Of a DNA stretch of 64,000 bases, positions 30,953 through 63,406 are shown one piece after another. Within the stretch, counting starts at the first letter, position 1; each line of letters opens with the position of its first letter. Below the pieces are notes generated by a model. That model made no database searches. It saw only the letters and a program-made list of their open reading frames with translations, and was not told the DNA's origin. The position numbers were made by a program, and so were the translations under genes. Source of the stretch: Rhizoclosmatium globosum (Eukaryota; Chytridiomycota; Chytridiomycetes; Chytridiales; Chytriomycetaceae); assembly GCA_002104985.1 (NCBI GenBank), contig MCGO01000146.1, forward strand, positions 1-64,000. Direction: 5' to 3'.

Positions 30953-32338
30953 ATGCCGCTCTCGTTTGGACACTCGTATACATCCATGCCAGACATTCAG
31001 TCACCCGAAGAGCGGGCCTCCGCTGCGGACGTATCGCTATTTTCGGGACTTGAAGCAAAACAAGATCTTCATGCTCTTACCCTCACCACAAGTTCTTTCT
31101 TGCCTCAACAACAACCAAATGCCAAAGCAGATGAGGCAATGCACAGTACCGTTGCGGCAAGGGACTTCATTGAGCCTTACCAGACATTCCGGCAATTAGG
31201 TTTTGACCAGCCACTGCAGGAGCACGATCTCCACTCCCGCAACAAATTCCACCCTCCATCAGCCCAACACTCGTTGCTTTGCGGAGCTGTCTTGTCGTCA
31301 GATCCGAATGGATCATCGTGTCTTTCCCCATTCTTTAGCTCCGGATCATCCTTCTTTACGGTTGAGCCACAACCATACCTTGCCAGAACAGTTCCTTACC
31401 ACGAATTAGATCCCCTCCTCCAAATACCGCCACAGGGATACAATCATGCACAAATATCCCCACTACAAACGCTATTCCCTTCCACCGCCATCGCGGCATC
31501 ATCGGCAACAAACGTCCGCAATTTACAGGTTCTTCTTGGCGGTTGCCCCACGAATCACCTTACATCACTCCCTACGCCCACGTCATCCTTCTACAACAGC
31601 AACAGCAGCAGCACCACCACCAACAACAACACATGCTCGCCCTTCTTTGACACAAACCCAGACTCTACTCTCCTAATCTCACCACTCCAAACAATCGCAC
31701 CGCAGTTCCACACTCCAACGTCTCCCACCCTTTCACTGCCTGAAGAAGATGTAGTCGCCAAAGAAACAAAGTCCGATGCATTGGCTTCAGGGAAACCGGC
31801 CAGGAGAGTGCCACTACACCGTCCACCGAGACCGTCTCGCGCAGCCAAAGAGAAGGCATCGACAAAGATTGAGTGGACAGAGTGTTCCTTCTTTGCCGAT
31901 GATCCCAACACCAACTCCGACAATGAAAACGACGACGACGACGATGACGAATTCAACGAAACCTCCTCTTGCGCCAAAAACGTCAAACGGGATCCAACCT
32001 CTTATTCAGCCTCACCCTCCTTTCAAGGTCACTCACGAAGAAACTACGCACGACAAAGAGACTCGTCTCGAGAACTGTCAGAATCAGACGCACAGCAGCA
32101 ACAAAATACACAACAGTATTCAAAATCAAGCAGCAGATCGTCGCTCTCCAAACACCAAAAAGCAATTCTAAAGCAGGAACTGGACAAACAAGCATATCCA
32201 AGCATGGAACGGATGCGTGAACTGGGAGAAGTGTGTGGAATGAATGCACGGAAAGTGCGGATTTGGTTCCAGAACCAACGGGCAGCAAAGAAGGCAAAAG
32301 GGAAGGGGTTTGGAGAGAAGGGGCGGGGGCGGTCTTAG
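30953..32338 (+). CDS. Homeodomain protein H1
   Basis: First gene of the homeobox array; intronless, about 461 residues. Long disordered Ser/Pro/Asn-rich N-terminus with an acidic run NENDDDDDDE before a basic stretch. The homeodomain is at the C-terminus (about 32130-32310): LSKHQKAILKQELDKQAYPS then MNARKVRIWFQNQRAAKKAK. Spacing from helix 1 Leu16 to Trp48 is exactly canonical, giving a 60-residue non-TALE homeodomain with W48, F49, N51 and R53 intact. It ends in a basic tail GKGFGEKGRGRS. The start chosen is the first ATG of the frame. AATAAA lies at 32395-32400. Presumed nuclear transcription factor; targets unknown. Confidence 0.9.
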   Translation: MPLSFGHSYTSMPDIQSPEERASAADVSLFSGLEAKQDLHALTLTTSSFLPQQQPNAKADEAMHSTVAARDFIEPYQTFRQLGFDQPLQEHDLHSRNKFHPPSAQHSLLCGAVLSSDPNGSSCLSPFFSSGSSFFTVEPQPYLARTVPYHELDPLLQIPPQGYNHAQISPLQTLFPSTAIAASSATNVRNLQVLLGGCPTNHLTSLPTPTSSFYNSNSSSTTTNNNTCSPFFDTNPDSTLLISPLQTIAPQFHTPTSPTLSLPEEDVVAKETKSDALASGKPARRVPLHRPPRPSRAAKEKASTKIEWTECSFFADDPNTNSDNENDDDDDDEFNETSSCAKNVKRDPTSYSASPSFQGHSRRNYARQRDSSRELSESDAQQQQNTQQYSKSSSRSSLSKHQKAILKQELDKQAYPSMERMRELGEVCGMNARKVRIWFQNQRAAKKAKGKGFGEKGRGRS

Positions 32339-32746
32339 TAATAGGTTAACTAATATAAGTTTGTAATGGGGTAGAATATCTATATCTTGTAAGAAATAAA
32401 TCGCAACAGTAAAATCGCTATTTCCATTTGGGTGAATAATCAAAATGAAAGGGTGGATATTTTCCGATGAGGTGTATTTATAGGATTCGAAAACCTGTTT
32501 CATCGTCCTTGTAGTAATATTTGTAATAACGAGAGAAAGGAAAGGAACGAGAGGAAAAGGAGAGTTAGAATGTGTATTTTAACAAACAGTTATAACATGG
32601 ATTGGAACATTTGCAAGTGAGGGCACTTACTTTTTAAAGGGTCATTGTTTTCTGGTGTCTGTCCAATGGCAGTCAATTTGATTTGAGGGCCATCAAAAAT
32701 TTGATTTCTAAAAGCATCACAAGGCCTCTTTCACTCTCTCTCTTGA
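32339..32746. promoter_or_regulatory. H1-H2 intergenic region
   Basis: About 410 bases. The H1 polyadenylation signal AATAAA is at 32395-32400. The H2 promoter side holds ATTTGATTTGAGGGCCATC and AAAAATTTGATTTCTAAAA, resembling the TTTGAATTTCTAAG phrase found before H7. No gene seen. Confidence 0.35.
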
Positions 32747-34442
32747 ATGGACGCCCTCCTCGCAGCCGTGTCCGTATCCGAAGGACTTCCCCTGACTGAG
32801 ACAGGGTTCGACTGCGCATCAGTGGCGACATTGGCGGCGGCGGCGGCTTCGACGGCGGCCGACGCTGACAAATTGAAGGACTTTGACGGCGGCGACAACA
32901 ACAACGACTTCGACGACGACTTTGAGGCGTGCGCGGCCTTCGACTCGCCGCAAATGAGTGTCGTCGTCGTTCAACCAGGTCCTGAACAACGAGACAGAAA
33001 ACGAAGATTCAGAATCCCGGCTGACTCGCTCGCTCACTTGAAACACCTCTTCGAACTTAACCCGAGGCCTTCTCAAGATGAACTCAGTGCTCTGTCGCTG
33101 CAGCTGAGCATCGACGAGAGGAAGATTAAGATCTGGTGAGTGCTCAAGACAATGTCATGGCTCTCCTATCACTCTCGGAAAATTGATTGCAAAAACGCAA
33201 AAACCCGGGAAAAAACCATGATATCACTAAACTCTCTTCCTCTCTCTCTGCACTTGTTTGTTTTGTGATTACGCTAACTCGTGGTCTCTCCAGGTTTCAA
33301 AATATGCGCACCCGGAAAGGGCTCAGTAACAGCAGATCTCCACCCTGAACAATCTTGTTTATCATCAACACTCCTCTGTTTCCCCCTCAATTCCTGCCGC
33401 AGCTTCACGTACGGCATCAAATCCTTATGCGAAAGCTGAAAACAGTCCTTTGACACTGCCGTCAACTTTGCTTCCCTCGGCAACTAGCTCCGACAGTTCG
33501 ACCTCCCAGTATCCTCCTTCGCATCAATCGGCACCACCCCCTCCTCAACGTTTCGTTCAAAATCCTGCCTTTTCTCAAGGTGTAAAACATGATCCTCGTC
33601 ATGGTCAACCCCACCAACCAGACTACCCTCCTCCTCAATCGCAAGGAAGATATGATCCAAACTATCAACAAGTTCCAAGTAGTGTTGCAAATAGCTACAG
33701 GCATCCATATCCGCCACACCCACCGCACCAGCCACCTCCGACCCACCAGCCACAACAACACTATCCACCCCAACACTATGACGTTCGGTATCAACAGCAA
33801 CCATACCAACAACCAGGCCCGCATTCTTATAATGGATCTTATCATCATCAACCTATGCCACACTCTATGCCCCCCCAACAACAACAGCAACAACACTATG
33901 CACCTTTAAGTTACACTCAGTCTCAACAGCAACAGCAACCTCAGCACTATGATGCTCCACCATATCACCAACCTCCTCAACATTCTCAGCCACAGTACTC
34001 CAACGAAACCCATAATCATCATCAGCAACAAGGACATCAACCCTTACCCCACCCGCACCACACAACACATTCAAATGTACCCTCAACCATCCAAACCCAC
34101 GAAACATCATCCCCCCGCGCCGCTAAAATCCAAGCCAAAAAGGGTCTCAACTCCCTAAGCCCAGGCGGTGACCGTCGAAGTCCAGACGACGGCAGCACCC
34201 CCAGCGAACAAGGCGCCGTCGACTCCCCCGGCACTGGCTTCGACTACAAAAAAGCCAAACGATTCATCATGTCGCGCGAGCACTTGAAATGGCTCAAAAA
34301 AGTGTTTGAAGAGACACCGTTCCCGACTGCGGAACAAATGCAGCATATCAGTGAAGTTGTTGGGATGGATCGAAGGCAAGTTCGGGTGTGGTTCCAGAAC
34401 CGACGGGCTGTGGAGAAGAGGAAGGGAAATACTGTAGGTTGA
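32747..34442 (+). CDS. Double-homeodomain protein H2
   Basis: Exon 1 encodes an Ala/Asp-rich start and homeodomain a: RFRIPADSLAHLKHLFELNP then SIDERKIKIW. The intron 33136-33293 splits the Trp48 codon as TG|G, and exon 2 continues FQNMRTRKGLS. The frame then needs one extra base in AA at about 33328 to continue into QQISTLNNLVYHQHSS. A long Gln/His/Pro-rich region follows, and homeodomain b at the end has KRFIMSREHLKWLKKVFEET and MDRRQVRVWFQNRRAVEKRK. The second frame has no in-frame ATG before about 33855, which supports one protein with two homeodomains. Without the extra base, homeodomain a would end in a stop soon after KGLSNSRSPP. Both homeodomains are canonical 60-residue types. Confidence 0.75.
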
Positions 34443-34581
34443 GAGGTGTTGTTGATTTCGATGAAAGGCAGGGGTGAAAATGGAAACGTGATACTATTCT
34501 GCAAAGTTAATTAAAAACCCTTGAATCAATCATTATCTTAATAATATCTGTGTATTAATAAGAGGATGTTCGCTGAGAAAC

Positions 34582-35988
34582 ATGACCAAAAAAGGGCAAC
34601 AACAACCACATCAAGTCCAAGAACGGATCGCGCTCTTTGTGCCCAATGTGATTGGCTACATCCGACTTGCCACATGTTTCCTTTCGTGTGTTGCCATGGC
34701 CGAGCGACCTGTGACTGCGATCGTATTGTACTCAGTGTCCTGTCTTCTTGATGCAGCAGATGGATACGCAGCACGGGCCCTGGATCAAAGTAACGCTTCC
34801 CTTTACTTTTCAGCTCACTTGACGCTATCATCATCCCTCTTCATCCTACTCCTTCGCCATCGCAACTGATCCAACGCAATCCTCTCAACCCTTTCCCCTC
34901 CTCCCTTCTTCTTCTCCACAAACACAACAACCAAACCAACATTTAAATCCAACACAACGAAAAAAAGGCTCCCGCTTCGGCGCCGTGCTCGACATGGTTC
35001 TCGACCGCCTAACAACGCTCTGCCTCCTCGTCCGCCTCGCCCTCCAACTCCCCGCCCCGTTAGTCCTCGCAATCCAAGTCCTCGCATCTCTCGACCTCGC
35101 CTCACACTACTCCCACATGTACGCTTCCCTCGTAACCGGGTCTGAGAGCCACAAGAAGATTGACCCGAACGCGCCATACCTCCTGCGACTCTACTATCAA
35201 TCTAAAGTTGTCCTTTTTCTCGTGTGTTTGCTGGATCAGTGGTTTTATATCTGTTTGTATCTGTTGACGTGGAGGGATCCTGGATCTGGTTCGTCTTCCT
35301 TTGAAATCGTCTGCACTTGAACTCTCTTGCAATTCTGGAAATGAGCTCTTTATTTCGAATACGGATGATGATTAATTTTGGGACGCAAAAGGACGGGTTT
35401 ATTGGAGGTGCGATGAAATACTGGGGTTTGCGAAAACTGGAAATATCCCCATGGCGGAAGGAGGCAACTTTGTGATTGACTGTGTGACTATCGCCTACTT
35501 TAAGAACAGCAAGATAATCCAAAATGTCAATCTTGAACTCATACTCTCAACACTTCATCGAATTCTCGAAAACCCAACAACTAACTAACCTTTCAACGAA
35601 ACACACACAGGCAACCTCCTCTTCCCCGCATCTCAAACAGTATCAACCTCATGGTTCTCAGTCCTCATGAACGAAGGTGCAGGAATGTTCATCAAACACG
35701 CACTCGTTCCTTTCTTTGGAACGACGCCTGTCGAAATCGGAATTCTCTTGATTGAAGAAATGGGTGCAATTCGAATGACCATTTGGGTGATTGCAGGGTT
35801 TAGTGGCGTTGTTTGTCTGTTCAAACAGGTGAAACCCCCCAAGTCCTTCAGATTTCTACCTTTGATAAAAAGCGCGTTGACAATTTTATTGCACCTAGGT
35901 CTTGAACGTGATTCAGATGGTCGGTGCATACAAAGATTTGGCTGCTTTTGACGTAAAGAGCCGATCAAAGGGGAAGAGACGGGGTTGA
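34582..35988 (+). CDS. PIS1: Phosphatidylinositol synthase (CDP-alcohol phosphatidyltransferase)
   Basis: It starts MTKKGQQQPHQVQERIALFV and then has PNVIGYIRLATCFLSC. The catalytic motif D-G-x2-A-R-x8-G-x3-D-x3-D is complete across the first splice: DGYAARALDQ joined to SRFGAVLDMVLD. The PI-synthase hallmark HYSHMYASLVTGSESHK follows, which separates it from choline or ethanolamine phosphotransferases. Introns occur near 34791-34971, 35289-35610 and 35830-35898; the last exon gives VLNVIQMVGAYKDLAAFDVK. Multi-pass ER membrane enzyme making phosphatidylinositol from CDP-diacylglycerol and inositol. It is the only ordinary gene inside the homeobox array and shares the + orientation. Essential in yeasts. 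Confidence 0.92.
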
Positions 35989-36657
35989 TTTTTTTATTCG
36001 TTGATTCTTTGCGGTATATGATGCTGGCGATAAAAGTAATAATGGTTATAGTCTGTTTTCTGCAGACAGCGCGAAGGAGCGCTTACGCCACCTCCAGCCG
36101 TCAAATTGGAAAATTTTGAATATGCGTCCAACAACGTCCAGTGTCAAAACGGGAAGACTGCATTATTAAATAGGATTTCAAAATGATGGATTTTTCTATC
36201 CGTGTAGTTTGCAGGTGAGATGTTACGCTTATTCCATATATTCAAAAAGCCGAGCTTTTTAAACCCGGTTTTCTTTCTCGAATCTATCTGACATCCGTGT
36301 CAATAGTCATGAAAGGCAGAGAATTGATGTATGACTGTTGCTGATGTAGAGATGAGGGGTGGCACCCTCAGTCTAACCCTCATTGTCATCCTGAGCTTCG
36401 GAGGAATGTAGGAGACTTCCGCTACCGAAAATGGATGTTTCGGATCCAAACCAAGGTACATTCTTCTGTCCTAGACAGTTTCTGGCCCACTACGGATGGG
36501 CACGATGACATCTTACTCCGCCAAACCCTCAATCTTGCACGAAAAAATCTTGGGGAATTTTTTTGGGCTCTCCCAAAAATTTCCAGCAGCATCCCACACC
36601 AACAACCACCGCAGACAAAACGTCACTGCGAAACCCTGCAAGCCCAACACAAAAAAG
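35989..36657. promoter_or_regulatory. PIS1-H3 intergenic region with GGGTGGC-type element
   Basis: About 670 bases without a supported gene. GAGGGGTGGCACCCTCAG near 36355 shares GGGTGGC with the region before H5 and, on the other strand, with the duplicated element before H7. AAAATCTTGGGGAATTTTTT near 36543 lies about 110 bases before the chosen H3 start. Confidence 0.35.
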
Positions 36658-37749
36658 ATGACTGCCATGTATCCCCAAGATCCCTACGAGCAGCACTTCT
36701 TCTATGAGCAGATGCCCTATCCCACTGCGGCACCTCTGAATCAAGAAACATTCTACTACGAGCAGTACGCCCCCGCCGCCCCTCTTCAGCAACAACCGCA
36801 TCCAACCTATCTTCCTCTGGACGCAGAAGTACTAGTGCCATTTGAGCTCCTCCAGGGGTCATTCTCTGTGTCAGACGAAGTGTTCTCGCACAGCCCCGTC
36901 CATCGCTTCGATCACCCAACTTTGGATATGCATCATAACCCTCATGAAGTTTTCCCATCATTCGCGCCTATTCAAAGCCATCCACAAGACTACCAGCAGT
37001 ACGCAGATCAGTCACTCTACTCCAACAATCCATACACTGCAACTCACCCTATCCCCAGCTTTGACCTTTCCATCTCACCAATCTCCACCAGTCCGCGTTG
37101 CCGTTCTCCTCCATCTCCAATCAACACTGCCAACTCGCAGTGTATCCCTCTCTCCGCAATCATGGGCTCTACTCAAGAGCTCAAGCGAGAACCCATCTCC
37201 CAACATCTCTCCTCCACAATCCCACCACACCAATCACAAATGAACCAGATCCAGTCCCCTCCACAAGCATTTATCGACACAAGAACCCACGAGTCCTACA
37301 CCGACATGTATCCAGCCCAACCAAGCAACACGTACACAACGCCACCAACAAACTCCTCCTCCGCCGCAACAGCCCACCACCATCAACAACCCTACCAACC
37401 CCGCCCCCAAGTCCGCATCGTATCCCCCCTCAGCGACCACGACGACTCCGAAACCTCCTCCTCAACAACACACCGCCGAAACCGCGTCGGCGGAACAAGC
37501 AAGAAACGCCACACCCTCGACACATCCCAATCCGACATCCTGAACCAATGCTTCCAAAGCCACAGGTTCCTCCGCCCAGGACAGGCAAAAGAGCTGTCGG
37601 AGCAGTTGGGTATGACTACAACCCAGGTCAAGATCTGGTTCCAGAATAAGCGCGCGTATGGGAAGAGGAAGGGGTATAAGCGTGGAGGCTCGAATAAGCA
37701 TGCTCACGCGCATGACGATGAGGACGACGGCGCGTATGGGTCTGAGTAA
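36658..37749 (+). CDS. Homeodomain protein H3
   Basis: Intronless, about 363 residues from MTAMYPQDPYEQHFFYEQMP; an in-frame ATG 54 codons upstream (36496) is possible but encodes unlike sequence. Tyr/Pro/Gln-rich N-terminal region, then a basic stretch (SSSTTHRRNRVGGTSKKRHT). The homeodomain reads LDTSQSDILNQCFQSHRFLR then MTTTQVKIWFQNKRAYGKRK, with W48, F49, N51 and R53 intact and canonical 60-residue spacing. The tail is basic and then acidic (DDEDDGAYGSE). It shares with H5 the features LNxCF, FL, QAKxLS, LGMT and WFQNKRA, so these two form a separate subgroup. A polyadenylation signal AATAAA lies near 37946. Confidence 0.9.
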   Translation: MTAMYPQDPYEQHFFYEQMPYPTAAPLNQETFYYEQYAPAAPLQQQPHPTYLPLDAEVLVPFELLQGSFSVSDEVFSHSPVHRFDHPTLDMHHNPHEVFPSFAPIQSHPQDYQQYADQSLYSNNPYTATHPIPSFDLSISPISTSPRCRSPPSPINTANSQCIPLSAIMGSTQELKREPISQHLSSTIPPHQSQMNQIQSPPQAFIDTRTHESYTDMYPAQPSNTYTTPPTNSSSAATAHHHQQPYQPRPQVRIVSPLSDHDDSETSSSTTHRRNRVGGTSKKRHTLDTSQSDILNQCFQSHRFLRPGQAKELSEQLGMTTTQVKIWFQNKRAYGKRKGYKRGGSNKHAHAHDDEDDGAYGSE

Positions 37750-38602: not shown

Positions 38603-39807
38603 ATGTCAATCAAGCAAAACAACTCATCGACACCGCAGCAGTCTTCAAGCGGATTGAATCCATTGTCTGAGCATCCATTATTGAGACAGCTCCACTCACC
38701 GTCCACGCTCCCCCTCTCTGCATTTGGGGATCTCTCCAGCACCTTGAACCAACCTCAAGTGGCAACCCAAGACGACAAAGCATTGATGTCAACTTCATTT
38801 GATAGTGACTTTGATTTCCTCACCACACTGTCTCTTCCATCACAGTCTCAAGTCATTTTAAATGCTCCTCCACCACCAAAGTCAAACTTGAAAAATGGTT
38901 GCAAGCTTTTCCTTGACACGTCAACTACCACGCCTCTCTTAGACCAACAAATTCAAGCTGCCTTCTTCTCTCCCAATACACCAAGTACATTTCAATCAGG
39001 CTTCTTGCAGTCACAACTGGATCAAGCATTCAATGCATCTACAACACCATCCGGCCTCTTGGATCCAAGTTATCAAGCACTATATTCAGGATTACCAATC
39101 GGATCATTTGAATCTCTCTCCTTCCAGTCACCCACTGAAGTCCCAACAACAAACTTCTTTTCGCAAAGTTTTGCAACACCTACACACACTCCAGTCAACC
39201 CATTTTTCCAGCAGCCCTTCACAATACCAAATTCCACTCTTGAAAATCCTTTCACCCGTGATTTCCTTGGTACTTCGTCGCATTCTGTGCCACTCTCCAG
39301 CCCAAGCGTCTCGCCTTCACAATTCACAACAAATCGAGTCAACACACCACGGTTGATCTCTCGGCAATCAGTGATTCTTCCACGGTACAACCCGATCGGA
39401 ATCGAGAGCGCACCACAGAGTCGCCATTGCAGCCCCCTCCCAACACCAAGACCCAAAAGCGCACCCCAAAGCCGTGTTTCTTCTCCTGTTGCACGAGACA
39501 GTTTGAATTCCAGTTTCGATGTTGAGCATTTATCTAACATGCAATCCGATCCCGACGCGAAACGCTTCCGCCTCCCTAAACAACAAATGGACTGGTTAAA
39601 AAGTCGGTATGAAGAGAATCCGTTCCCGACGCCAGATGAAGTGCTTGTCATGGCGAATAAGCTTGGAATGAATAAGCGCAAGTTACGTATTTGGTATGTT
39701 ATCATTGTAATCAGAAAAAATCTGTTTCTGACATTCTGTTTCATAGGTTTCAGAACCGACGATGCGTCGCAAAACGGAGAGAGAAGCTTGGCAGTTCACT
39801 TGACTAA
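38603..39807 (+). CDS. Homeodomain protein H4
   Basis: Starts MSIKQNNSSTPQQSSSGLNP, the first ATG of the frame. Ser/Thr/Pro/Phe-rich N-terminus with SP-type phosphorylation-like sites (SRHCSPLPTPRPKSAP). The homeodomain begins KRFRLPKQQMDWLKSRYEEN and continues MNKRKLRIW, where intron 39694-39746 splits Trp48 as TG|G. Exon 2 adds FQNRRCVAKRREKLGSSLD and stops. The protein therefore ends just after the homeodomain. Canonical 60-residue spacing. The KRFRLPxxQMxWLK opening is shared with H7 and H2b and closely with H6. Confidence 0.9.
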
Positions 39808-42782: not shown

Positions 42783-42851
42783 AACAAAATAGTGATATCG
42801 AGCAAAATAAATGCGTTATGGACAAATGTCGAAGAAGTTCTGCTCTCATTC

Positions 42852-44638: not shown

Positions 44639-44901
44639 AGTGCTCGAGTAAATCTTATAATCGTCCATATGCATATTTTGTAATCCGCAAATCAAACCTG
44701 TAATAAAATGTATTTCTTGATAATTGCTTGATCTGTCACTACTGTATTTCTCAGAAAATAAGACACTTAAAGAGAAAAAGAACCCCTCTTCCCTCCAGCC
44801 CATAACCTCCTCTCCTTCTTTGAAAACAGTAATAGGACCCACGTGGTTTTCTAACGACCCACGCAGCTCCGGTTGCATAATTCACATAATTCTTTCATCA
44901 T

Positions 44902-52954: not shown

Positions 52955-53364
52955 TATTATGTATATAGCTATTTTTCCATTCATTATTGTGTATACCTGT
53001 ATCTTTCGCTCAAATAAACTCAAATATATAGTGGCGACTACAAACGGATTAACTGACCAATGAAACGGGGTGAGGGACATTTGCCTCCAGTCAGAATGAA
53101 AAAAAAGCAGATTGGCCTCTACAGCCACGTGATGAAGGGGACGGAAATCCGAGAGCCAATGGCAATTGAGGGAGTGAGGGATTTTTGCGAGGGACGAAAG
53201 TGAAAAACAGCAGAAATCGCTCACAAACAGCTCAACGATGACCAATGTACGTCCTTCCTTCCTCACTGCCCTTCCCTCGACTCAACTTGAATCCTCTGTG
53301 TGATTCACATTCTCTCTCTACACTTTGAGCGCCTCTGACTTCGGTGTCTGATCTAAAACAACAG
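52955..53364. promoter_or_regulatory. H8-H9 intergenic region
   Basis: About 410 bases. AATAAA at 53013-53018 probably ends H8. ATGACCAAT followed by GTACGT at 53236 and an AACAG acceptor just before 53365 could be a tiny first exon (Met-Thr-Asn) of H9; not confirmed. Confidence 0.35.
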
Positions 53365-53955
53365 ATGCAACCCAACTCTCCCCAGGAAAGCAACTGTCCA
53401 ACTCCAGAGCTCTCGTCTTCTACATCATGGAACTACCGCCTACCCACTCCACCTGCCTCTCTGGTCCCACAAGTCAGCCTCATGACCTCGTCAGTGTCTA
53501 GCCCAGTGTCACTGCCACCCCTCTCGCAAGTCCTCTCCAACCTCCAAAACACACCGTTCACTTTGCCTCCAAGACCAGTCTACATGATCCCAAGTCCACG
53601 AGCATCGCCACCATGCATCACTCTAACCAACTCACCACCCGTGTGCATAAACCCACCCATCCGCTATCAAGTTCCAGTCCCATGTCAAGTCTCGGAAGTA
53701 GATTCGCCTGAGAAATTTAAATTGACAATGTATCAGTTGAATATGCTCAAAGAAATCTATGCCAAGAACGAGACACCGTCTGTTGCGTTGTATGACAGGA
53801 TATCTGAACGACTGGGGGTTCCTAGAAAGTTTTTGTTGACTTGGTAAGTTTGTTGATTGTTTTGACCATGAATTTGATTCGGTATTGACGTTCATTGGGA
53901 TAGGTTCCGTCACAGGAGGGCGAAGGAGAGACGGGATATCGCAAAGTCCAAGTAA
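53365..53955 (+). CDS. Divergent homeodomain protein H9 (N51H, Q50R)
   Basis: Starts MQPNSPQESNCPTPELSSST; a possible three-codon upstream exon at 53236 would also be in phase. Short Pro/Ser-rich region, then the homeodomain PEKFKLTMYQLNMLKEIYAK and ERLGVPRKFLLTW. Intron 53844-53903 splits Trp48 as TG|G, and exon 2 reads FRHRRAKERRDIAKSK before the stop. Positions 50 and 51 are Arg and His instead of the usual Gln and Asn; W48, F49 and R53 are kept and the length is canonical. Loss of Asn51, which makes the key adenine contact, suggests altered or lost DNA recognition. About 177 residues, without the IMSIxALI tail. Confidence 0.8.
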
Positions 53956-54192: not shown

Positions 54193-55159
54193 ATGGAAGC
54201 CACAACGACAAACTCAAAGAATGGCTACACTACTCAGCAAGGGTACAGTCAGTACTTCTTGCCGTCTCCGCCGTATGTGAGCAAGGTGCACAGCTCGAAC
54301 AATCCAATCAATTCAGTGAAGCCGTTGGCCACTCCTCCCACACCAACTCCCACATTCATCTACGCACCACCACCAACCGAACAGCTTTCACAAACACTGC
54401 CAAACCACTTCATGGTTCCATCCCACGTGCAGCACCAGGCACACAGCCACACCGTCCAACCCCCTCTCCGCCACTTCCATCACCACCGGAACCCCCCACC
54501 TCCAATCACAATCCCGATCATCCTCGCAAAACTACCACCAACCACTCCTCATACAATAACAACATCCCCATCTACTCCAAAAACCGCAGCATCGCTGTCT
54601 TTCACCCAAACCACAAATCCAATTACCACAACCACTTCCAAGTCACCTGACCAAAATGACCCTCTTAAAGCATCACTCAATCACAGTCACAACATGATGT
54701 ATCCCACACCGCAACAAGTCAGCACACTTGTCGTTGTCACTCATAAACCGATACGCGGCACTACAAAACCCGCAACAATCACGTCACCGACGGAATTAAC
54801 GGCATCACAACACCGCCTCCTCGAAAAGATATACAAAACACATCCAGCACCGTCACGGGACACAATGAAACGGGTATCAGACCGAATGGGAGTTGCGATG
54901 CGGGCTATATCAGGATGGTGAGATAGATTTTTCTCATAATTTTTAAATTGGATGACTGATTTGGAATTGAACACTGTGCAGGTTCCAGATGAAGCGACGG
55001 GAAGAGAGGAAACGGGTTGAGGAGGAAAGGAGAGGGAAGTCGGGCAATGGTGATTTGTATATAGTTCATCGGCCCGACCGCGATGAAACGAGGACAGAGA
55101 GTGTAAAGAGGCAGGGAGATGTTAGACCGTTTGTTATGAGGATTGAAGCTTTGATTTGA
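54193..55159 (+). CDS. Divergent homeodomain protein H10 (N51M)
   Basis: Starts MEATTTNSKNGYTTQQGYSQ; Thr/Pro/His-rich region. The homeodomain is SPTELTASQHRLLEKIYKTH then VSDRMGVAMRAISGW. Intron 54918-54981 splits Trp48 as TG|G, and exon 2 continues FQMKRREERKRVEEERRGK. Asn51 is replaced by Met (CAG ATG AAG), while W48, F49, Q50 and R53 remain. The protein ends GDVRPFVMRIEALI, a member of the shared C-terminal tail family. The retained tail and full-length frame argue against a pseudogene. Confidence 0.85.
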
Positions 55160-55665
55160 ATCAAGACGTGTTTTTTTTGACAGAACGGTTGTTTGATAGG
55201 CACAGAGGATATTATTTTGTTGGTTCATTACTGTAGAATATTTTGTAAAATAGATATAGATTCACGTTCTGCTTACTATGATCCTAATCACAAAGCTACA
55301 TTACATCAGCCAAATTTAGGGGGGTTAGAATCTTCTTAGGGCTTAGAAACATATAAAACATTCAACTTGATAGATTCACATGTTTTTATATTATATATAA
55401 ACGTAAACTCTTTGATTTGTGATGATAAGAAAGTATTTCTCATCAAATTAAAAGTATTTGTAAACAAACAACTTTAATTCTGTGAATGAAAGAGTAGAAG
55501 ATGGCGTTGAAGTGATCCTGTACTTGTCTCCCTCGTCCAACTCACACTCAAAGAAAGAAGCAGTGTAATGGAGATGGAATTGGAGGCGGGAGGACACAAG
55601 AATTTTTGCCATTTTCCATTGCGATAATAATTTTTCATCCCATTTGCCAAGAACAACTTTCAAAG
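55160..55665. promoter_or_regulatory. H10-H11 intergenic region
   Basis: About 505 A/T-rich bases, including a TATATTATATATAAAC stretch near 55388. No gene or RNA seen. Confidence 0.3.
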
Positions 55666-56415
55666 ATGAACACACACACTGCTTCCCACGCACCTGCGCT
55701 GATGCCCGCCACTACGAAGCCCAAAGTGTTTGATGCGCTGTCGCTTCTTGCTGAGTCAGCGGCGCTTGTTGAGCATGAATTGGGACTGACGCCGTCACCA
55801 ACCGAGTCGTCCACTTTCACGCACACGCACTCGCCATCGCCATCGCCACGTCTGACTCACTCTCTGCGTTCGACTGCTTCGCCTGGCGCCACCGTCTCGA
55901 CAACCACCGCCGCCTCCGCTGCGACTGTGACTGTGACTCACCGAGCCTCTCCATCAGCATCTATTGACCACCACCACCTTCATTTGACAAGACAACCGGC
56001 CCCAACCACAGCCACAGCCACAACCTCAACCTCCGTCTTTATTCTTCCACCAACAAACGGCGCCGTCCGTGCAACAAAGCCGCAGATCGCAGTCCTCGCC
56101 CGTGTCTTCAAAACGACCCCTCTGCCCTCAACCGAAATGCAGAAGGAGCTCGCTCAGAGCGTTGGTATGACCGTGGCTCAAGTCAGGAACTGGTTCCAGA
56201 ACAACAGGGCAAAAGTGCGAAGGGAGGAGAAGGAGAAGGGTGTCAATGATAATGATGATGGTGCCAAGAAACGAAGACTCAATAACCAGCCTCCACATCC
56301 ACCCTCAACTCCTCCTTCCTTTTCTTACCAACCTGCTTCTTTTTCTTTTACTCCTTCTTATCCACCAGCATCAACATCTGCAAACTCGATGAGTATAGCA
56401 TCACTTCTTTGTTGA
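55666..56415 (+). CDS. Homeodomain protein H11
   Basis: Intronless, 249 residues from MNTHTASHAPALMPATTKPK. N-terminal helix FDALSLLAESAALVEHELGL could be an interaction segment. The pre-homeodomain block FILPPTNGAVRATKPQ is shared with H13-H16. The homeodomain has KPQIAVLARVFKTTPLPSTE and MTVAQVRNWFQNNRAKVRRE. Canonical residues at 48, 49, 51 and 53. The C-terminal tail ends TSANSMSIASLLC, a variant of the IMSIxALI end. A Pro/Ser/Phe-rich stretch precedes the tail. AATAAA at 56510-56515 is a plausible polyadenylation signal. Confidence 0.9.
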   Translation: MNTHTASHAPALMPATTKPKVFDALSLLAESAALVEHELGLTPSPTESSTFTHTHSPSPSPRLTHSLRSTASPGATVSTTTAASAATVTVTHRASPSASIDHHHLHLTRQPAPTTATATTSTSVFILPPTNGAVRATKPQIAVLARVFKTTPLPSTEMQKELAQSVGMTVAQVRNWFQNNRAKVRREEKEKGVNDNDDGAKKRRLNNQPPHPPSTPPSFSYQPASFSFTPSYPPASTSANSMSIASLLC

Positions 56416-57268
56416 TCAATTGATGATCAATAGATGAGTAATGATATGTTACCCACCACTATCAAACTTTGCTTCACCCACGCTGTATTTAGAAGCTCTT
56501 TCTTATTCAAATAAATGTCAACCCGCTTTTTGCATATCAGTTGTCCGTTTTTTTCGTCAGACACAGATCACAAGACGGGTTCGGGTGAGAGAAGTGAGCA
56601 TCAAAAATGGTTATCGGCGCAGTGAGAGGGCTTCGGTGCTCAACGCAGTGAATGCACTTTCGTGAATTATACAATTGACAATCCTCTCCCGTTGCTTTTT
56701 TTGTATTGAGTGAAGGAAGAGCGAAATATCCCAACGCATTGAAGCGCAGTTCGATTAAGTGAGCGTTTGAAAAAACTTGTATCAGTAAATCTACACAATC
56801 GATAATGATGTGACGATGAAGGGGGGGAAATGTTTTCAGTTTGGAACCAAGCCAATCAATGTCATTCTACCCTATATTTTCCGGAAGATATTCCAGAAGA
56901 TCTCCATTCAAAGTGGAGATGGAAGGGGGCGCCACTATTATTAGGGGGGAGGGGGGGGACGAGCCCCCCCCTTCCTTCCCCCCTAAAAACCCCCCTCGAA
57001 CCCCCCCCTTTTTGACAATGGTTGTGATGTTGGGCTTTGTTAATATGTGTGCTCTTAATACCGTATTAGTTAATTGTAACTTCTATGCTCTCAACCAGTT
57101 CCGTAGTCTATCCAGTAGGGAGTACTCCAACAGATGTGAACATCCGTAGTTCGAATCCAGAGTTGAAATCAATAAGAAGTTTTACTCAGAATAAGTTACA
57201 ATGGAGATGGAAGACGAGAAGAGATAATGGATGGAGATGGAAGACGATCTGGAAGACGAGCTTCATGA
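56416..57268. other. H11-H12 intergenic region with G/C homopolymer hairpin
   Basis: About 850 bases. Around 56943-57011 a run of G6-A-G8 is followed by C8 to C9 tracts and TTCCTTCCCCCC, able to fold back on the G tract and also to form G-quadruplex/i-motif. GAGATGGAAG phrases recur at 56917, 57202 and 57231. A TAGTTCGAATCCA segment near 57146 looks like a tRNA B box but does not fold as a tRNA. Confidence 0.45.
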
Positions 57269-57872
57269 ATGCCGCATTCATTTCCCCACTTGAGCACCAA
57301 TGTGTCCATTACAGTTATGAATAATACGCAATTAAAACTGTCATTACAACTAATGGCAGACAGTGAATCAATGATCTCAGATACCTCTTCCTTCAGGTCA
57401 CTCAAAACGTATCAGTCAGTCAACACAGCACAACCATCGCTTCCTTCCTTCACTGATATGGGATTCCATCTCTTTTATCTCAAATCACATCGTTACTTTG
57501 CTCTTCCATCCGAAATCGTGACCTTCCTTCCGAATTACATTCAACCAACTACAGAACAACCCGTGAAAATCGAGAGCTCTGTTGATAAATCTCCTCGTAA
57601 GCGCACCTCGCTCTTGCCAACGCAAGTTTCTGTTCTTGAAGGGGAATTCTCTCTCAACGCATATCCATCCTATTTCAAACACTCGGAGCTGGTTACTAGA
57701 TTAGCCATGTCGCGGGCACAAGTTCGGAATTGGTTTGCGGTTAGTCCTTTTGCCTGTTTCCTTTGTGGCTCACTTTGATTATCTCATTTACATCCAACAG
57801 AACCATCGGGCAAAATACCGGCGTATTGCTGAAAGACAGAAGAGAGACTCTTCAAGAGTGTATCAGAAATAA
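57269..57872 (+). CDS. Homeodomain protein H12 (Q50A)
   Basis: Starts at MPHSFPHLSTNVSITVMNNT (57269; MNNTQL at 57317 also possible). The short N-terminal part is followed by KSPRKRTSLLPTQVSVLEGE, then ELVTRLAMSRAQVRNWFA. Intron 57740-57800 lies between residues 50 and 51, and exon 2 adds NHRAKYRRIAERQKRDSSRV to the stop. Gln50 is Ala and residue 52 is His; W48, F49, N51 and R53 are intact and spacing is canonical. About 180 residues, ending shortly after the homeodomain and lacking the conserved tail. Confidence 0.85.
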
Positions 57873-58111
57873 GACTGATGTGGCTTGGGAAGTTGTGGCT
57901 CTTGGTGGATATTTACGGAAAATGAACTTTCATTGCTTCAATATTTAGTTTGGTGATTTTACAGAAATGAAACCCGTTTTTCTAACTGTGGAAAGGATCT
58001 GGACCAAACCCAACAGAACAAGACACAAGGATTCGAATCGACACACAAGCCCTGGAAAAGCCCAACCTCTTTTTGCAGTTTCAGTGACAAGCCCAAACAG
58101 AAAAAGAAGCT

Positions 58112-59209
58112 ATGAAACTGTCGGACGAGACCAACCACCACTCAGCAACCACCACACCACTGAGCCTCAACCTAGAGCCAGCTGTCAAAACGGAAAGGAC
58201 AGAAGAGCAGGAAGCTGAAGTGGCAGCGACTCTGGCCATGTTCTGCCACACTTCTTCAGCATCAGCTGCAGCCGCCACCAACACCGCCAGCACCACAGAC
58301 GATGCCCGTCTTCCTTCACCGCCACATAGCACACTCGGACCCTCTTTCAACAGCCACGAACATCACCATCACTACAACCACAGCACCTCACATTCAACGA
58401 CAAGCCGCCTCCATTCGCATCCCGCCCACGAAACCCACTTGCACCCTTCCACAATCCCACCATATCAAATCCAAACACAGCTCTACCACCAAGAAGCTCC
58501 GCCGCACCACTATATGAACCAGCCCCTCCCTCCCTCAAATCACAACACACAACAAGCCCACCAGATACATCACCACCAACAACACCACCTTCCAACCACT
58601 CACCAACCTGCATACCCACGCACAACAGTCCCCGACCGCCGTCCACAACTATTCCTCACCCCACCAACAACCGGCTGCCTCCGCACAACAAAACCGCAAC
58701 AAGCAGTTCTCCATGCCGAATTCGCTGCAAACCCGAACCCACCCGGCCCAAAGCAACAAGAAATCGCGGACCGCATTGGAATGAAAAAGAGCACGGTCCG
58801 GAACTGGTTTCAGGTGTGTATCCTTTTGGAGGCGCTCACATTTGAAAAAATTCCTTTCCCTGTGATTTCTAAACAACCTTGGATAATCTAGAATGCACGG
58901 TCTAAAGCGCGGAAAGCGGCGGAAGCACTTGCAAACCCTCATCTGCAGCAGGAGTACCAGCAAGGAGGCGACAGCGGAAGCGAAGTCGGGTCGAACGTTG
59001 GATCCACGCTTTCGTTTGCGGATTCAAGCGTTCTTGGGTCTTCACAGGTTTCTATGAACGTGGGTCCATCGTTCGTGGGGCAACCGATGCAACAGCAGCA
59101 GCAGCAAGTGTATTACTCACAAAATCATGTTCAACAAGCGGCACAGCCACAGCCGGTGGAGAGGGAGGCACGGTCGGTAAATGTAATGAGCATTTCTGCA
59201 CTGATTTAG
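58112..59209 (+). CDS. Homeodomain protein H13
   Basis: Starts MKLSDETNHHSATTTPLSLN. Long His/Gln/Pro-rich region. Pre-homeodomain block LFLTPPTTGCLRTTKPQQAV. The homeodomain continues LHAEFAANPNPPGPKQQEIA and IGMKKSTVRNWFQ; intron 58814-58891 lies exactly between Gln50 and Asn51, and exon 2 resumes NARSKARKAAEAL. Canonical residues at 48, 49, 51 and 53. Gln-rich tail (QQQQQQ), and the end is SVNVMSISALI, one of the shared C-terminal tails. Confidence 0.9.
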
Positions 59210-59519
59210 ATGGGCTTTTGGCATTCGTTTTTTTCTTTTCATTATGGTTCTGGGGTAATCACAAAATACATGTTTTTCCACGCTACTTCACGTGGTGTCT
59301 TCTGATTGGACAAGTGCCACAAGGCTTTCGGTAAGAAACTATAATGAGCTGTTGGGACAAGTGTGGCTATAGGGTTGAAGAGTGAGTAATTGTGCCAAGG
59401 AAGGCGGAGAAAACAAATGTTGTTGGACAACAATTCGGATTTGTGTCGGCTTGTGAAATGAATCTCCGGACTCCTTTCTCCTCTTTTGTTACAATTCAAA
59501 GCGAAAAATCAGATATCGA
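59210..59519. promoter_or_regulatory. H13-H14 intergenic region
   Basis: About 310 bases; no gene or clear motif seen. Should contain the H13 3' UTR and the H14 promoter. Confidence 0.3.
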
Positions 59520-60839
59520 ATGGATCCACCCACTTTGGCTACAGCTACAGTGCCTCCGCAGCATTGCGAACCTATGGCTGTACGATCCAGTCGAGTTGGG
59601 CCATTATCTGTTCATAGTGACACCGCCTCTCAACTTACGCCTCCAACATCAGAAGTGGGAACACTTAACCAAAGAGCCCCGAACTTTAATAGCCTTCCAT
59701 CTATTCGAGCACAGTTTGCTACTGCTCATCCAACGCCGTTGATGCCGCAGGCAAGTGCAAGAGTTTCAAACACTTACCAGCCTCTATTTCACCAACCGTT
59801 GGTTGCTCCACCGACCTTGCATATGGCAAATCATATTATTCGAAACGATTACCATCCATACCAACGCCCACATCACACGCAACAGCAGCACTATTCTTCA
59901 GGACCATCACAACAATCTCTGCCAAGACCACCACCATCCCAAGCCCAACACCACCAACACCACCAACACCAACCAGTTCATCAGCACCCGCATTATGCTC
60001 ATCCGCAGCCTCAAATATATCGCCCCATTCAACATCCACATCCATACACGCACCAACAAACTCGGCCACTGTATCATACTCATCCAACCACTGCCTCCAG
60101 TGTCTTGCACTCAAGCCAAACTAATACCCTTGCATCATCGCAACCACAACCACAACCATCCTCGATACTCCCAAAAATCCCTTCACCCCGCCTCACAACA
60201 CGAACCTACAAATCCCGTAAACCAAAACCAGACGGCCCACAAGTCTTTCTCACACCTCCAACAAGCGGTTCTATCCGTGCAACAAAGCCAGTTGAGTCCC
60301 AAAACATATTTACTAATCTATTTATCCTCAAACTGACTTACTTTACAAAAAAAAAACAGCAACTCAATGTCTTGTACAAGATCTTTGCAGAGAACCCTAT
60401 GCCAAGCGGTGAGATGCATGCGGCGATTGGGTTACGAATCGGTATGAAAAAGAGTACAGTTCGAAACTGGTTCCAGAACCAACGTGCCAAGGCCAAGAAA
60501 CAGCAAACGGAGGGACACGATGATCAGACTGCTTATATTGGGGATTTGAATTGGAATGGGGCTGAGGGTGAGACTGCTGGGGGTGTGAGTAGTTTGATAT
60601 CGACGGCGAACGGACATGACGATGTCGAGAGATTTGAAAAGTGTTTTGAAGGGTTTAAACAGGAGTATGATTCGACTGTTGAAGAGGAGGAGGGGTATGA
60701 AGGGGAAGGCGATGCAGATTCGTCGCCACCAGCTTCTGAACTTGCACCTTCCTCGTTGGTTAGTGAGGCAACAAACATATTGGCTCTTTCTGAATCAAGG
60801 AGACGGCCGCATATTATGTCTATTGATGCTTTGATATGA
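59520..60839 (+). CDS. Homeodomain protein H14
   Basis: Starts MDPPTLATATVPPQHCEPMA. Gln/His/Pro-rich region, then VFLTPPTSGSIRATKP. Intron 60291-60359 is 69 nt with no in-frame stop, so an unspliced transcript would add 23 residues to the homeodomain arm. Exon 2 gives QLNVLYKIFAENPMPSGEMH, then IGMKKSTVRNWFQNQRAKAK with no intron in helix 3. Canonical residues at 48, 49, 51 and 53. An acidic region (VEEEEGYEGEGDAD) precedes the C-terminal tail SRRRPHIMSIDALI, the best example of the shared end motif. Confidence 0.9.
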   Translation: MDPPTLATATVPPQHCEPMAVRSSRVGPLSVHSDTASQLTPPTSEVGTLNQRAPNFNSLPSIRAQFATAHPTPLMPQASARVSNTYQPLFHQPLVAPPTLHMANHIIRNDYHPYQRPHHTQQQHYSSGPSQQSLPRPPPSQAQHHQHHQHQPVHQHPHYAHPQPQIYRPIQHPHPYTHQQTRPLYHTHPTTASSVLHSSQTNTLASSQPQPQPSSILPKIPSPRLTTRTYKSRKPKPDGPQVFLTPPTSGSIRATKPVESQNIFTNLFILKLTYFTKKKQQLNVLYKIFAENPMPSGEMHAAIGLRIGMKKSTVRNWFQNQRAKAKKQQTEGHDDQTAYIGDLNWNGAEGETAGGVSSLISTANGHDDVERFEKCFEGFKQEYDSTVEEEEGYEGEGDADSSPPASELAPSSLVSEATNILALSESRRRPHIMSIDALI

Positions 60840-61228
60840 AACATATATACATTTCTAATACAACATTTGTCATTGCTGACCATTCTATTAACAATTGAGA
60901 GCTTTTAACGCTGTCTTGGCGGTCTTGGTGGCAATTGTGAGATTTATGATTTGTGAGATGAAACAAGTTTTAATCAAACAAGTTGCCAAGAAACCGCTAA
61001 AATTGTTCCAAAATTGGCCTTCAATCAGCCCCGGGCGCCGTTTGTTTCCTGCGGAGTTGAAGAATAGAGAATACAATGGTATCAGCTGGTAGCGAGAGGG
61101 AGCAATTGTGTCAAAGTGGTAAGTACGATAAGAAACAACAATTTCTTGGCAGGCTTCCCACTTGTTCCATTTTGAAATGGGTGTTCTATTGGTCAATTTT
61201 CCATCGTAAAATTTGTTCCAAGAAAAAC
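60840..61228. promoter_or_regulatory. H14-H15 intergenic region
   Basis: About 390 bases without a supported gene; an upstream continuation of the H15 frame (61076) is hydrophobic and unlike other family N-termini, so it is treated as leader. Confidence 0.3.
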
Positions 61229-62351
61229 ATGACGAGCCACACACATCCAACACCAGCACCAACACCAATTGGACCTAGAGGCGATGCGCTGTCAATGCTC
61301 AGTGTTGCGGCAGCGGCAGCGACAGGGTCTTCCGAGGCAGTGGGACAAGCGGGACAAGGGCCGAAGCTGCCGTCGTTCGGGGCTGCCTTTGGGGCGATCG
61401 CAGCGGCCTATCCTGTTCCATCGCCGCTTTCTGGTCAGATGAGTCAAATGAGTCAAGTGGAACAAGCAAGACAACAGTCCACGGCGGCGGCGGTTGGAAC
61501 CAGTCACCAAGGCCAACAGAGACTGCCATTCAACCAACCACAGCCGCCCGTCCACCACCACCACCACCACCACCACCCCTTCCAGCACCACCACAACCAG
61601 CACCAGCACAACTACCACCAACAAGTTCAACACCACCCACAAGTCTATGCTAGCTCGCAGGCGCTGCGTCATCCCCAGCACAGCCGCCCTCAAAGCCACC
61701 CTGATGCCCACCGCTCACCAACCACCACTCAACAACGTTTTATGGTTCCACCTACAAGCGGATGCGTTAGAGCTACAAGAGCCCAGCTCAAGGTCCTCGA
61801 GGCTATTTTTGCCGAGAACCCGCTGCCATCCACTCAAATGCACAACTCCATCGCCGAACGTATCAATATGAGCAAGCAGTCTGTGCGTAACTGGTTTCAG
61901 GTGTGTACTTTTGTTTTCTTGGCGCAATTTTTTGTTGCATAAAACTCAATCACTAATTGTCATCTTTTATTTAGAATCAAAGAGCCAAAGTACGACGTGC
62001 TGCAAATGAGGGTGACAAGGATGCTGCTGTCAAAGTAGCACTTCTTAACCAAATCCAGATGGAACGCACTCAAATGAAATATGCTGCTCCTCCCCATCTA
62101 ATTCTCCCACACTGTCGCATGAACCGGTTTCTCCAGTTTCTCATAACGAGCCATCTAACAAAGAACTACCCAAGCAAGAGCCAGCTCACACTTACCCACC
62201 ATCATTTGTCATTCCAAGCTCTTCATCCATCAGCTCTACATATCCATCATATTCGCATTACTATCACCAATCGTCTTTGTCAGCAACGCCATCATCTTCT
62301 TCGACCCCTCCCAATACATCACCACATTCAATCATGACACTTGTGATATGA
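61229..62351 (+). CDS. Homeodomain protein H15
   Basis: Starts MTSHTHPTPAPTPIGPRGDA; Ala-rich helix, a run of eight histidines, and a His/Gln-rich zone. Pre-homeodomain block FMVPPTSGCVRATRAQLKVL. The homeodomain continues EAIFAENPLPSTQMHNSIAE and MSKQSVRNWFQ; intron 61901-61974 lies between Gln50 and Asn51, as in H13, and exon 2 gives NQRAKVRRAANEG. A one-base loss in CCCC near 62092 changes frame; restoring it yields a Ser/Pro-rich tail ending SPHSIMTLVI, a variant of the shared C-terminal motif. AATAAA at 62424-62429. Confidence 0.85.
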
Positions 62352-62702
62352 TCATCATGATGTAAGACGTAAAATGTAATAAGTAAGGATGTTACTTGGA
62401 AGTGTACATTATACCAATAGCAAAATAAATGCCTTTCAGTTCGTAATTTGGACTTGTATTCTCCATTGAGTTGTTGGAAAGACTGTTGAAAAGACACCTC
62501 ACTCAGTTTCTTCCTTCAGTTCATCCCTACAAATAACCTAGATTCACGTAGATACCCATAAGCACAATCTTATAATCCTTGTAACCGCCATTCCTCAACA
62601 ATTCAACAAGAAAGCGTGCACTGACATCAGTGTCTTGTTTTGGGTCAAGCCCAATTGTGACAAAGCCAAAGAATTGCACTTTCTTTCTCAAAACTCGGTT
62701 GC
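62352..62702. promoter_or_regulatory. H15-H16 intergenic region
   Basis: About 350 bases; AATAAA at 62424-62429 likely ends H15. No gene seen. Confidence 0.3.
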
Positions 62703-63406
62703 ATGAGCCAAGAACAACAACAAAACGAGGCCGAAATGAATGCCTTATCGTCACTTCTATCCCTACGATACGCCGAATCCCCGCAGATACCTTCCACAGT
62801 CTCCTGTGCACAGTCTCCGCGTGCCGAACGGTCAAGTCCCACCTCATCAGCAAACAACAACCCTGTACCTCCCCACTCTTCCGAATCCTCAATCAACACT
62901 CCCACGCGGGCCTCACTACTGATGCCTGAGACCCTGCACCCTTCCATCAGTCCGATCAATCCGCAAGCCACACATACACACCATCCTCCTTCCACTCGAA
63001 CCCGCCGAAACAAACACTATGTATTACCCACACATATACAAGGCACTGAGCAGCGCTTTCTCACGCCTCCAACAAGCGGGAACAGGCGCCCCTCGCGAGC
63101 GCAGACAGCTATTCTTGAACGGATTTTCAGTGACGAGACGGTGGAGCCTGATGATGAGGAAGTTGATTCTATTTCTCGGAGGGTTGGAGGCCTTTCGAAT
63201 GAGGTTGTTGCGAAATGGTTTTTGTATGTTTTTGTGTTTTATATCCATCCGAATCGGGAGGTTTTGCTGACTTCTTGTGTCTTTTGCGTTTGCTTAGGAA
63301 CCGTCGTATGCGATTGGATCGTGAGGAAAAGAGAAGTGGTTCGTCGTTTGAGGATAGGAAAGAGTCGCCGTCCCATTCTGTATCAAAACATGAAAATGAA
63401 GAATGA
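62703..63406 (+). CDS. Homeodomain protein H16 (two-residue longer, Q50L)
   Basis: Starts MSQEQQQNEAEMNALSSLLS. Pre-homeodomain block RFLTPPTSGNRRPSRAQTAI. The homeodomain has LERIFSDETVEPDDEEVDSI and GGLSNEVVAKWF; between Leu16 and Trp48 there are two extra residues, so it is a 62-residue domain. Intron 63224-63297 falls in codon 50, joining as Leu, then exon 2 NRRMRLDREEKR. W48, F49, N51 and R53 equivalents are kept. It ends HSVSKHENEE, without the shared tail. Last gene of the array. Confidence 0.8.

Follow-up and report, generated by a model that had tools for sequence, protein, structure and literature searches.

Animal Hox and NK (ANTP-class) clusters contain many typical homeodomain (HD) genes in tandem, and these genes are old duplicates whose linkage has been retained. 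Linked homeobox genes are also found in fungal HD mating loci (basidiomycete A and b, and MATalpha2/MATa1) and in the HD pairs of microsporidia. As described in parts of PMC2866331 and PMC4901127, the known loci are small sets, made up of HD1/HD2 or TALE/typical pairs, with distinct alleles in the mating types. The array described here is found in the chytrid Rhizoclosmatium globosum, which a taxonomy lookup places in the Chytridiales, Chytriomycetaceae, and it shares with the animal clusters the tandem arrangement, the old duplicates and the retained linkage. It was detected in a window of 64,000 nucleotides, by which we mean the whole stretch of DNA analysed; the window comprises bases 1-64000 of C53, a 95,516-bp contig in a 56.9-Mb assembly with 420 contigs. 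The array is a homeobox cluster that originated independently and is conserved yet partly dispersible; its resemblance to animal homeobox clusters is convergent. It probably represents an old, family-wide cluster of typical homeobox genes in the Chytriomycetaceae, built by tandem and block duplication and held largely under purifying selection.

HDs were sought in six frames over contigs by using a profile made from 12 HDs of the array. The window contains 17 HDs, all on the plus strand, between 32129 and 63221. Nine of these are interrupted by an intron, and short GT-AG introns complete them, such that splicing restores each to full or near-full length. Because one gene, H02, carries two HDs, the 17 HDs correspond to 16 genes (H01 to H16). 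This part of the array starts at 30953, where an annotated protein from the other haplotype places the start of H01, and ends at 63406 with the spliced frame of H16. The sixteen plus-strand genes with 17 HDs that the initial annotation had placed at 30953-63406 are therefore confirmed by the profile search, by splicing and by mapped annotated proteins. The 330-amino-acid open frame of H02 is 97% identical over its full length to BCR33DRAFT_711640 of R. globosum. Gaps between genes measure 162-854 bp in 13 of the 16 listed cases, some gene ends being approximate.

The original observation is right and understated, as the array extends past the window. Ten further HDs are located at C53:71092-91935, four on the plus strand and six, the last six of the array, on the minus strand; the common orientation claimed earlier thus holds inside the window but not beyond it. 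In total, the array comprises 27 HDs in about 25 genes over 60 kb of C53. The lower gene count reflects two double-HD genes, namely H02 and a putative read-through frame in which H22 and H21 would be spliced into one gene. C53 aligns along C223:37241-126028 (a 944,327-bp contig) with 96.5-96.8% identity and with alignment gaps at one insertion and at a repeat-rich stretch near 65 kb. This near-full-length alignment indicates that C53 is the second haplotype of that region. The same 27 HDs occur in the same order at C223:69431-122434, and no HD match with E <1 was listed in C223:30001-69430 or C223:122435-140000.

Across the genome, 121 profile matches gave 58 distinct HDs (27 in the array and 31 elsewhere). 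Second alleles or copies (C416, C323, C291, C1 and others) and a second C373 set were dropped, as were matches that were weak or not fetched (C193/C13, C135, C373:201773, C124/C213, C129 and C268). If the 58 HDs were spread evenly over an assumed 28.4 Mb, 0.11 would be expected per 53 kb, compared with the 27 observed. Smaller homeobox arrays also occur in this genome. Three HDs that are 82-89% identical lie at C334:720201-722604, four HDs lie at C36:55373-57654 (equivalent to C416:104262-106837), and two sets of five HDs are arranged in opposite orientation at C373:93528-95011 and 113224-114661.

Similarity among the HDs follows their position. Adjacent HDs of the array have a mean similarity of 0.312 versus 0.244, a value that none of 5000 shuffled orders reached, and similarity falls with distance along the array (Mantel r -0.22, with 2 of 5000 as extreme). 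For 15 of the 17 window HDs, the best match within the genome also lies in the window, a count that 1 of 20000 label shuffles equaled. The corresponding signal is weak for the array as a whole, as the best match is inside the array for 18 of 27 HDs (1090 of 20000 shuffles as high). The likeness of neighbors and the matches within the window uphold the tandem duplication that had been proposed for these genes. The best pairwise identity in the array is 0.61, versus 0.82-0.89 on C334.

A tree of 88 HDs, which are short sequences and leave the deep forks unresolved, was built without H10, H22 and four dispersed HDs. Its branch A includes H01, H02a, H02b, H04, H06 and H07 together with dispersed HDs on C36, C334 and C168 (support 99/93), and branch B joins H03 and H05 with HDs on C373 (87/91). 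Branch D consists of H11, H13-H16 and a C393 pair (98/91), with H08 and H09 nearby (91/86, unstarred). Branch E comprises H18-H20, H25 and H26 with HDs on C18 and C312 (96/85), and H17 is weakly attached to it (85/36). Branch F contains H23, H24 and a C46 pair (98/92), whereas H12 and H21 are unplaced. The alternation of A and B members (H02 A, H03 B, H04 A, H05 B) suggests that a block of two genes was duplicated. The initial annotation had divided the window genes into a left group (H01-H07) and a right group (H08-H16). Branches A and D, both starred, with which arms, tails and intron positions largely agree, support this division, but H03 and H05 depart from it by grouping with the dispersed C373 set. 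The accompanying expectation that array members would form one clade or two adjacent clades does not hold, because the tree separates at least five subfamilies that include dispersed paralogues.

Relatives of the array genes were collected with one single-protein and two concatenated database searches, which gave 243 listed proteins. The concatenated searches scored the candidates with the most words in common and contributed the best 120 of 2948 and the best 120 of 309 proteins; all numbers given for relatives are therefore minimum values. Seventy-five of the 243 proteins, picked by name, were compared; 74 carry names of Chytriomycetaceae genera (the family was checked for seven names) and one is from Olpidium. 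The comparison of HDs with those of relatives left out the Chytriomyces sets HDU77, HDU78, HDU80 and C. confervae, the annotated proteins of R. globosum itself, Olpidium, HDs below 30 bits and one C373 HD. The contigs of relatives were grouped by species and size only. Among the 46 contigs from outside R. globosum (one of them from Olpidium), at least 12 carry more than one protein related to array genes.

Several of these contigs preserve parts of the array order. In Physocladia, HK100_000521, 522 and 523 correspond to H05, H07, and H08 then H15, which is the order of the array. In Siphonaria, HDU68_008158 and 159 correspond to H03 and H05, HDU68_005400 to H07 then H08, and HDU68_007331 and 334 to H26 and H20. 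Rhizoclosmatium JEL0117 has relatives of H03, H11 and H14 (HDU79_010771, 775 and 777) and of H20 and H19 (HDU79_006101 and 102), and Obelidium has seven proteins on a single 726-kb contig. HDU and HK locus tags presumably run along contigs. Because some gene models in relatives fuse two genes, adjacency on a common strand can be deduced for those pairs. Relatives of H02, H03, H04, H05, H07, H08, H15, H19, H20 and H26 are recognizable in other genera. H02 has double-HD relatives in Siphonaria and Chytriomyces, and an Obelidium relative also has two HDs, the first of them degenerate. The prediction that the array is conserved in related species is thus borne out in part: shared contigs or partial order are seen in Physocladia, Siphonaria, JEL0117 and Obelidium, but in Chytriomyces the genes are partly dispersed.

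Comparison of the two haplotypes is suggestive of purifying selection. The HDs differ by 53 synonymous and 5 non-synonymous changes (ratio of non-synonymous to synonymous polymorphism, pN/pS, of 0.026), which implies that most array HDs are constrained. In the exon segments that bear the HDs of H01-H26, 192 changes are synonymous and 134 non-synonymous (pN/pS 0.22); for H11, H12, H13 and H17, these segments do not differ between haplotypes. C53 and C223 diverge by 2.4% over the left part of the array, 1.3% over the right part and 1.7% over the outer part, compared with 2.0% in the left flank. Since the array diverges as its flank does and includes near-identical stretches, no idiomorph is apparent in this one diploid individual. 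Divergence is 0.1-0.4% in window positions 56001-60000 and in C53:68001-76000, versus about 2% around them, which resembles local loss of heterozygosity.

In an alignment, 26 of the 27 array HDs have no insertion; the exception, H16, has one additional residue at each of two positions. The exact 60-residue, non-TALE spacing described earlier for all HDs but one is accordingly found in the other 16 HDs of the window. The helix 3 residues that mark typical non-TALE HDs (W48, F49, N51 and R53) are generally present, with W48 in 26 of 27 (H07 has F) and N51 in 24 of 27. At position 47, H01-H07 have I or V, H11-H15 have N, H19, H20, H25 and H26 have F, and H23 and H24 have Y, with other residues in the remaining HDs; because this position differs among subfamilies, these probably read DNA differently.

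The regions outside the HDs also differ along the array. Left proteins end 6-26 residues past the HD (the annotated model of H04 stops within it), and P and Q account for 8-16% and 3-12% of their N-terminal parts. In five of the nine genes H08-H16 (H11, H13, H14, H15 and H16), the HD is preceded by a PPT(S/N/T)G arm. Five of these nine genes (H08, H10, H11, H13 and H14) encode a C-terminal tail, e.g., M-S-I-x-A-L-I, that resembles the EH1 motif. In the comparison of composition and tails, H03, H05, H11, H14, H19 and H20 were represented by proteins of other Rhizoclosmatium. A strict tail pattern, designed after the first tails had been seen, was applied to all six frames of 239,489 bases. It has 11 matches, namely the five tailed genes of the array, the C223 allele of each, and a single site downstream of a dispersed C393 paralogue. 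A looser pattern has 23 matches on C53, including the five tailed genes. A slightly wider pattern is C-terminal in 10 of the 243 retrieved proteins, all from Chytriomycetaceae genera (Rhizoclosmatium, Siphonaria, Physocladia, Obelidium, Podochytrium and Chytriomyces). The EH1 consensus is a heptad of the type F/Y/H-x-I-x-x-I/L-L, and the tails, of form M-S/R-I/V-x-A/S-L-I/L, follow its spacing but differ from it at the first residue. In the portions of the review PMC4901127 that bear on it, an EH1 variant at the first position is given, and yeast MATalpha2 is said to contain an EH1-like variant that acts through TUP1. A frame bearing a Tup_N domain is present in the R. globosum genome. On this basis, H08, H10, H11, H13 and H14 are candidate Tup1-recruiting proteins, most of them predicted repressors, and H10, which has a tail but lacks N51, could act as a competitor.

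These features are consistent with a model in which a few founder types gave rise to the array by repeated tandem and block duplication, and purifying selection would largely keep its genes. Most array genes would encode a DNA-binding regulator, and subfamilies that differ at residue 47 would probably read different DNA. The EH1-like tail would most likely recruit a corepressor of the Tup1/Groucho type, so that tailed members are expected to repress. As a whole, the array may divide control of the stages of the life cycle, from thallus to zoospore. Clustering most likely results from tandem origin and slow rearrangement, perhaps with shared regulation.

Several observations weigh against this model. 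Each of the subfamilies has dispersed paralogues, and such genes therefore do not require a cluster in order to exist. In relatives, 34 of the 46 contigs have a single listed protein, and many of these contigs are short. The Siphonaria records are flagged UNVERIFIED_CONTAM. Podochytrium shows a different order, in which HDU98_009653, 655 and 657 correspond to H20 with the H19/H20 type, H26 and H07. Five different contigs of 99-553 kb carry the relatives of H02, H03 (two), H07 and the H20 type in Chytriomyces cf. hyalinus JEL632. Between haplotypes, indels of 1-2 bp, or with sums not divisible by three, affect H05, H06, H15, H24, H25 and H26; these may be haplotig errors or broken alleles. N51 is missing in H09, H10 and H22. 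The tails begin with M instead of F/Y/H, H09, H12 and H16 have no tail, and the annotated tail of H15 is only loosely similar. H14 and H15 equal the left proteins in P and Q richness, and composition therefore gives no sign that the left genes encode activators. The 400 bp before 20 starts reveal neither a shared motif (the best of 12830 8-mers has p 0.0075 against flank windows, which is null after correction) nor an excess of TAAT-type sites.

Other explanations have to account for the same data. The array could be a birth-and-death tandem family that evolves neutrally by unequal crossing over, in which few genes matter and order reflects inertia. The degenerate members H09, H10, H16 and H22, the mini-arrays on C334, C36/C416 and C373, the dispersed paralogues in each subfamily and the small allele indels are all in keeping with such turnover. 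However, it would not readily explain the low pN/pS of the HDs, the recognizable relatives of ten array genes in other genera or the lack of any very similar pair in the array of the kind seen on C334, and we regard it as rather unlikely. It is a good deal more doubtful that the array is Hox-like in the strict sense, with gene order or shared chromatin control determining when or where genes are expressed during the life cycle and the cluster itself under selection. The order kept in part, e.g., H05-H07-H08-H15 in Physocladia, and the common orientation and short gaps of the 16 window genes would fit this explanation. In contrast, a PI-synthase-like (phosphatidylinositol synthase-like) gene, a repeat-rich frame and galactosyltransferase-like genes lie inside the array, the last six HDs are on the opposite strand, a 7-kb element splits H07 from H08 on one haplotype, the genes are partly dispersed in Chytriomyces and the upstream regions share no detected motif. 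We are equally skeptical of a second origin of Hox-like organization, in which left activators and right Tup1-recruiting repressors would form an ordered fungal array whose position and shared control schedule the life cycle. Nonetheless, some coupling of order and function like that of Hox genes is possible.

Fungal mating-type loci can contain linked homeobox genes, as parts of PMC2866331 describe, and the array might accordingly be an expanded HD mating-type or self-recognition locus similar to those of basidiomycetes. This idea is very improbable, given that, in this one diploid individual, haplotype divergence in the array resembles that of the flank, that only five HD amino-acid differences separate the haplotypes, and that no TALE (HD1-type) gene is among the 27 array HDs, whereas a clear HD with a three-residue insert is present elsewhere, on C12. 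An assembly artefact might be considered because the window lies on a short haplotig that shows some indels of 1-2 bp relative to the other haplotype. Yet the two haplotypes are collinear, with the 944-kb contig carrying all 27 HDs in order, and linked relatives occur in separately assembled species; an artefact is therefore rejected as close to inconceivable. An old Chytriomycetaceae cluster of duplicated genes, conserved but partly dispersible, accounts for the observations best.

The left genes of the window, all on the plus strand like the other homeobox genes there, begin with H01 (30953-32338; annotated as BCR33DRAFT_711639), whose HD (32129-32296) is near the C terminus and has no intron. 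The double-HD gene H02 (32747-34442) has its first HD at 32996-33135, which resumes after an intron (33136-33293), and its second at 34251-34421. H03 (36496-37749) is given as an open reading frame whose true start is possibly further in; its HD is at 37498-37668, and the relative HDU79_010771 has 363 amino acids. In H04 (38603-39777, with an approximate end), an intron at 39694-39746 separates HD segments 39557-39693 and 39747-39777, and in H06 (41773-42780), an intron at 42687-42730 separates 42550-42686 and 42731-42761. H05 (40479-41501) has its HD at 41292-41459, and H07 (43322-44638), in which F48 replaces W48, has its HD at 44435-44605. The HD introns of H02a, H04, H06, H09 and H10 are in codon 48, in phase 2.

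The right genes begin with H08 (51941-52954), with an HD at 52577-52741 and a tail at 52931-52954. H09 (53344-53955; HD at 53707-53843 and from 53904 onward) has H51 in place of N51, and H10 (54193-55159; HD at 54796-54917 and from 54982 onward, tail at 55136-55159) has M51. H11 (55606-56415) encodes a PPTNG arm, an HD at 56068-56223 and a tail at 56389-56415. The HD intron follows codon 50, in phase 0, in H12 (57269-57872; HD from 57596, intron 57740-57800), H13 (58112-59209; PPTTG arm, intron 58814-58891, tail 59186-59209) and H15 (61229-62348; PPTSG arm, intron 61901-61974). In H14 (59520-60839; PPTSG arm, tail 60816-60839), comparison with the JEL0117 relative points to a probable in-frame 69-bp intron at 60291-60359 in the arm. 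H16 (62703-63406) has a PPTSG arm and a weak HD (63087-63223 and from 63298 onward) with an intron close to the place used in H12, H13 and H15; its score rises from 12.9 bits unspliced to 23.4 spliced.

Two kinds of sequence interrupt the window genes, which the initial annotation had called PI synthase and Fanzor. The PI-synthase-like gene (34582-35320, plus strand) is between H02 and H03, in a stretch common to both haplotypes. Its exon at 34582-34869 matches PF01066 (CDP-alcohol phosphatidyltransferase) with E 1.6e-7, which supports the first label; a probable second exon (34985-35320) has no Pfam match. The other interruption is a 7,080-bp mobile-element insertion at 44730-51809 on the minus strand, whose minus-strand open reading frame at 45053-46777 is the one labeled Fanzor. 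C53:44730-51809 has no counterpart in C223, and the insertion is thus present on one haplotype only. The 7.07-kb element has five further genomic copies with 99-100% identity (one copy is split into two parts), and these near-identical copies imply that it was recently active and mobile. Without the insertion, H07 adjoins H08; the two are also neighbors within a single gene model of Siphonaria and, judging from consecutive tags, in Physocladia. The 571/574-amino-acid Fanzor frame has no PDB or NCBIfam match and, in Pfam, only matches below the cut-off (DUF6649, E 0.0013). No known family was found above the cut-off for the open reading frames of the element, another of which has one weak PDB match (E 0.041). 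The Fanzor label fits RuvC- and zinc-finger-like motifs and is a putative one.

Other repeats and open frames are located in and around the array. Window positions 20184-21783, in the left flank, are C-rich and strongly skewed, with overlapping open frames of >500 amino acids that contain internal repeats. The interval between H16 and H17 (C53:64622-68799) has long open frames on the minus strand that consist of repeats of the TETVTxTETA type and possibly encode a surface protein; a scan of one of these frames gave no Pfam match. About five similar minus-strand open frames are in tandem between H18 and H19 (C53:72386-79977), and the one scanned is galactosyltransferase-like. The telomere repeat TTAGGG x4 has no match listed on C223 or C53, which does not exclude a subtelomeric expansion.

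A literature search, which covered few subscription papers, found no published account of the array. In the main text of a chytrid atlas paper (PMC8887899), the term 'transcription factor' is absent and the only 'homeo' is homeostasis. Parts of that paper report RNA-seq of three life stages for the sequenced strain, JEL800, and R. globosum is described in part of PMC12659703 as culturable, with a highly synchronous 20-h life cycle. Since three-stage data exist for the same strain, the question of whether gene order relates to timing is answerable at once. With 27 HDs in one locus, in a genome with at least 58 distinct HDs, the array is an independent case for asking why homeobox genes cluster and whether their order matters.

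Compared with the mating loci and HD pairs of fungi, the array has 27 typical HDs, no TALE partner and no idiomorphs. H02 and, by its spliced frame, H22-H21 resemble double-homeodomain proteins of the DUX type in having two HDs per protein, and a profile of 12 array HDs matches DUX4 best among solved structures, helped by the two domains of DUX4. However, the HDs of H02 are far apart (residues 81-133 and 447-503 of 509) and belong to the local left subfamily; the likeness to DUX carries no claim of orthology. The tails resemble the EH1/Groucho-Tup1 motif in their seven-residue hydrophobic spacing but start with M and sit at the extreme C terminus; they are a candidate recruitment motif. An EH1-like motif is also reported in NKL proteins, in part of PMC4901127, a likeness to some array members. 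The YPWM hexapeptide is absent in the 13 array-type proteins checked, six of which are from other Rhizoclosmatium strains or species. Of the 19 animal rows in the tree, 17 group in a separate branch (95/84) that contains no array HDs, and the remaining two are Dux; Hox orthology is therefore not supported, within the limits set by the deep forks. The array thus appears to be a counterpart of the animal homeobox clusters that arose independently outside animals, with an order that is partly kept in related species.

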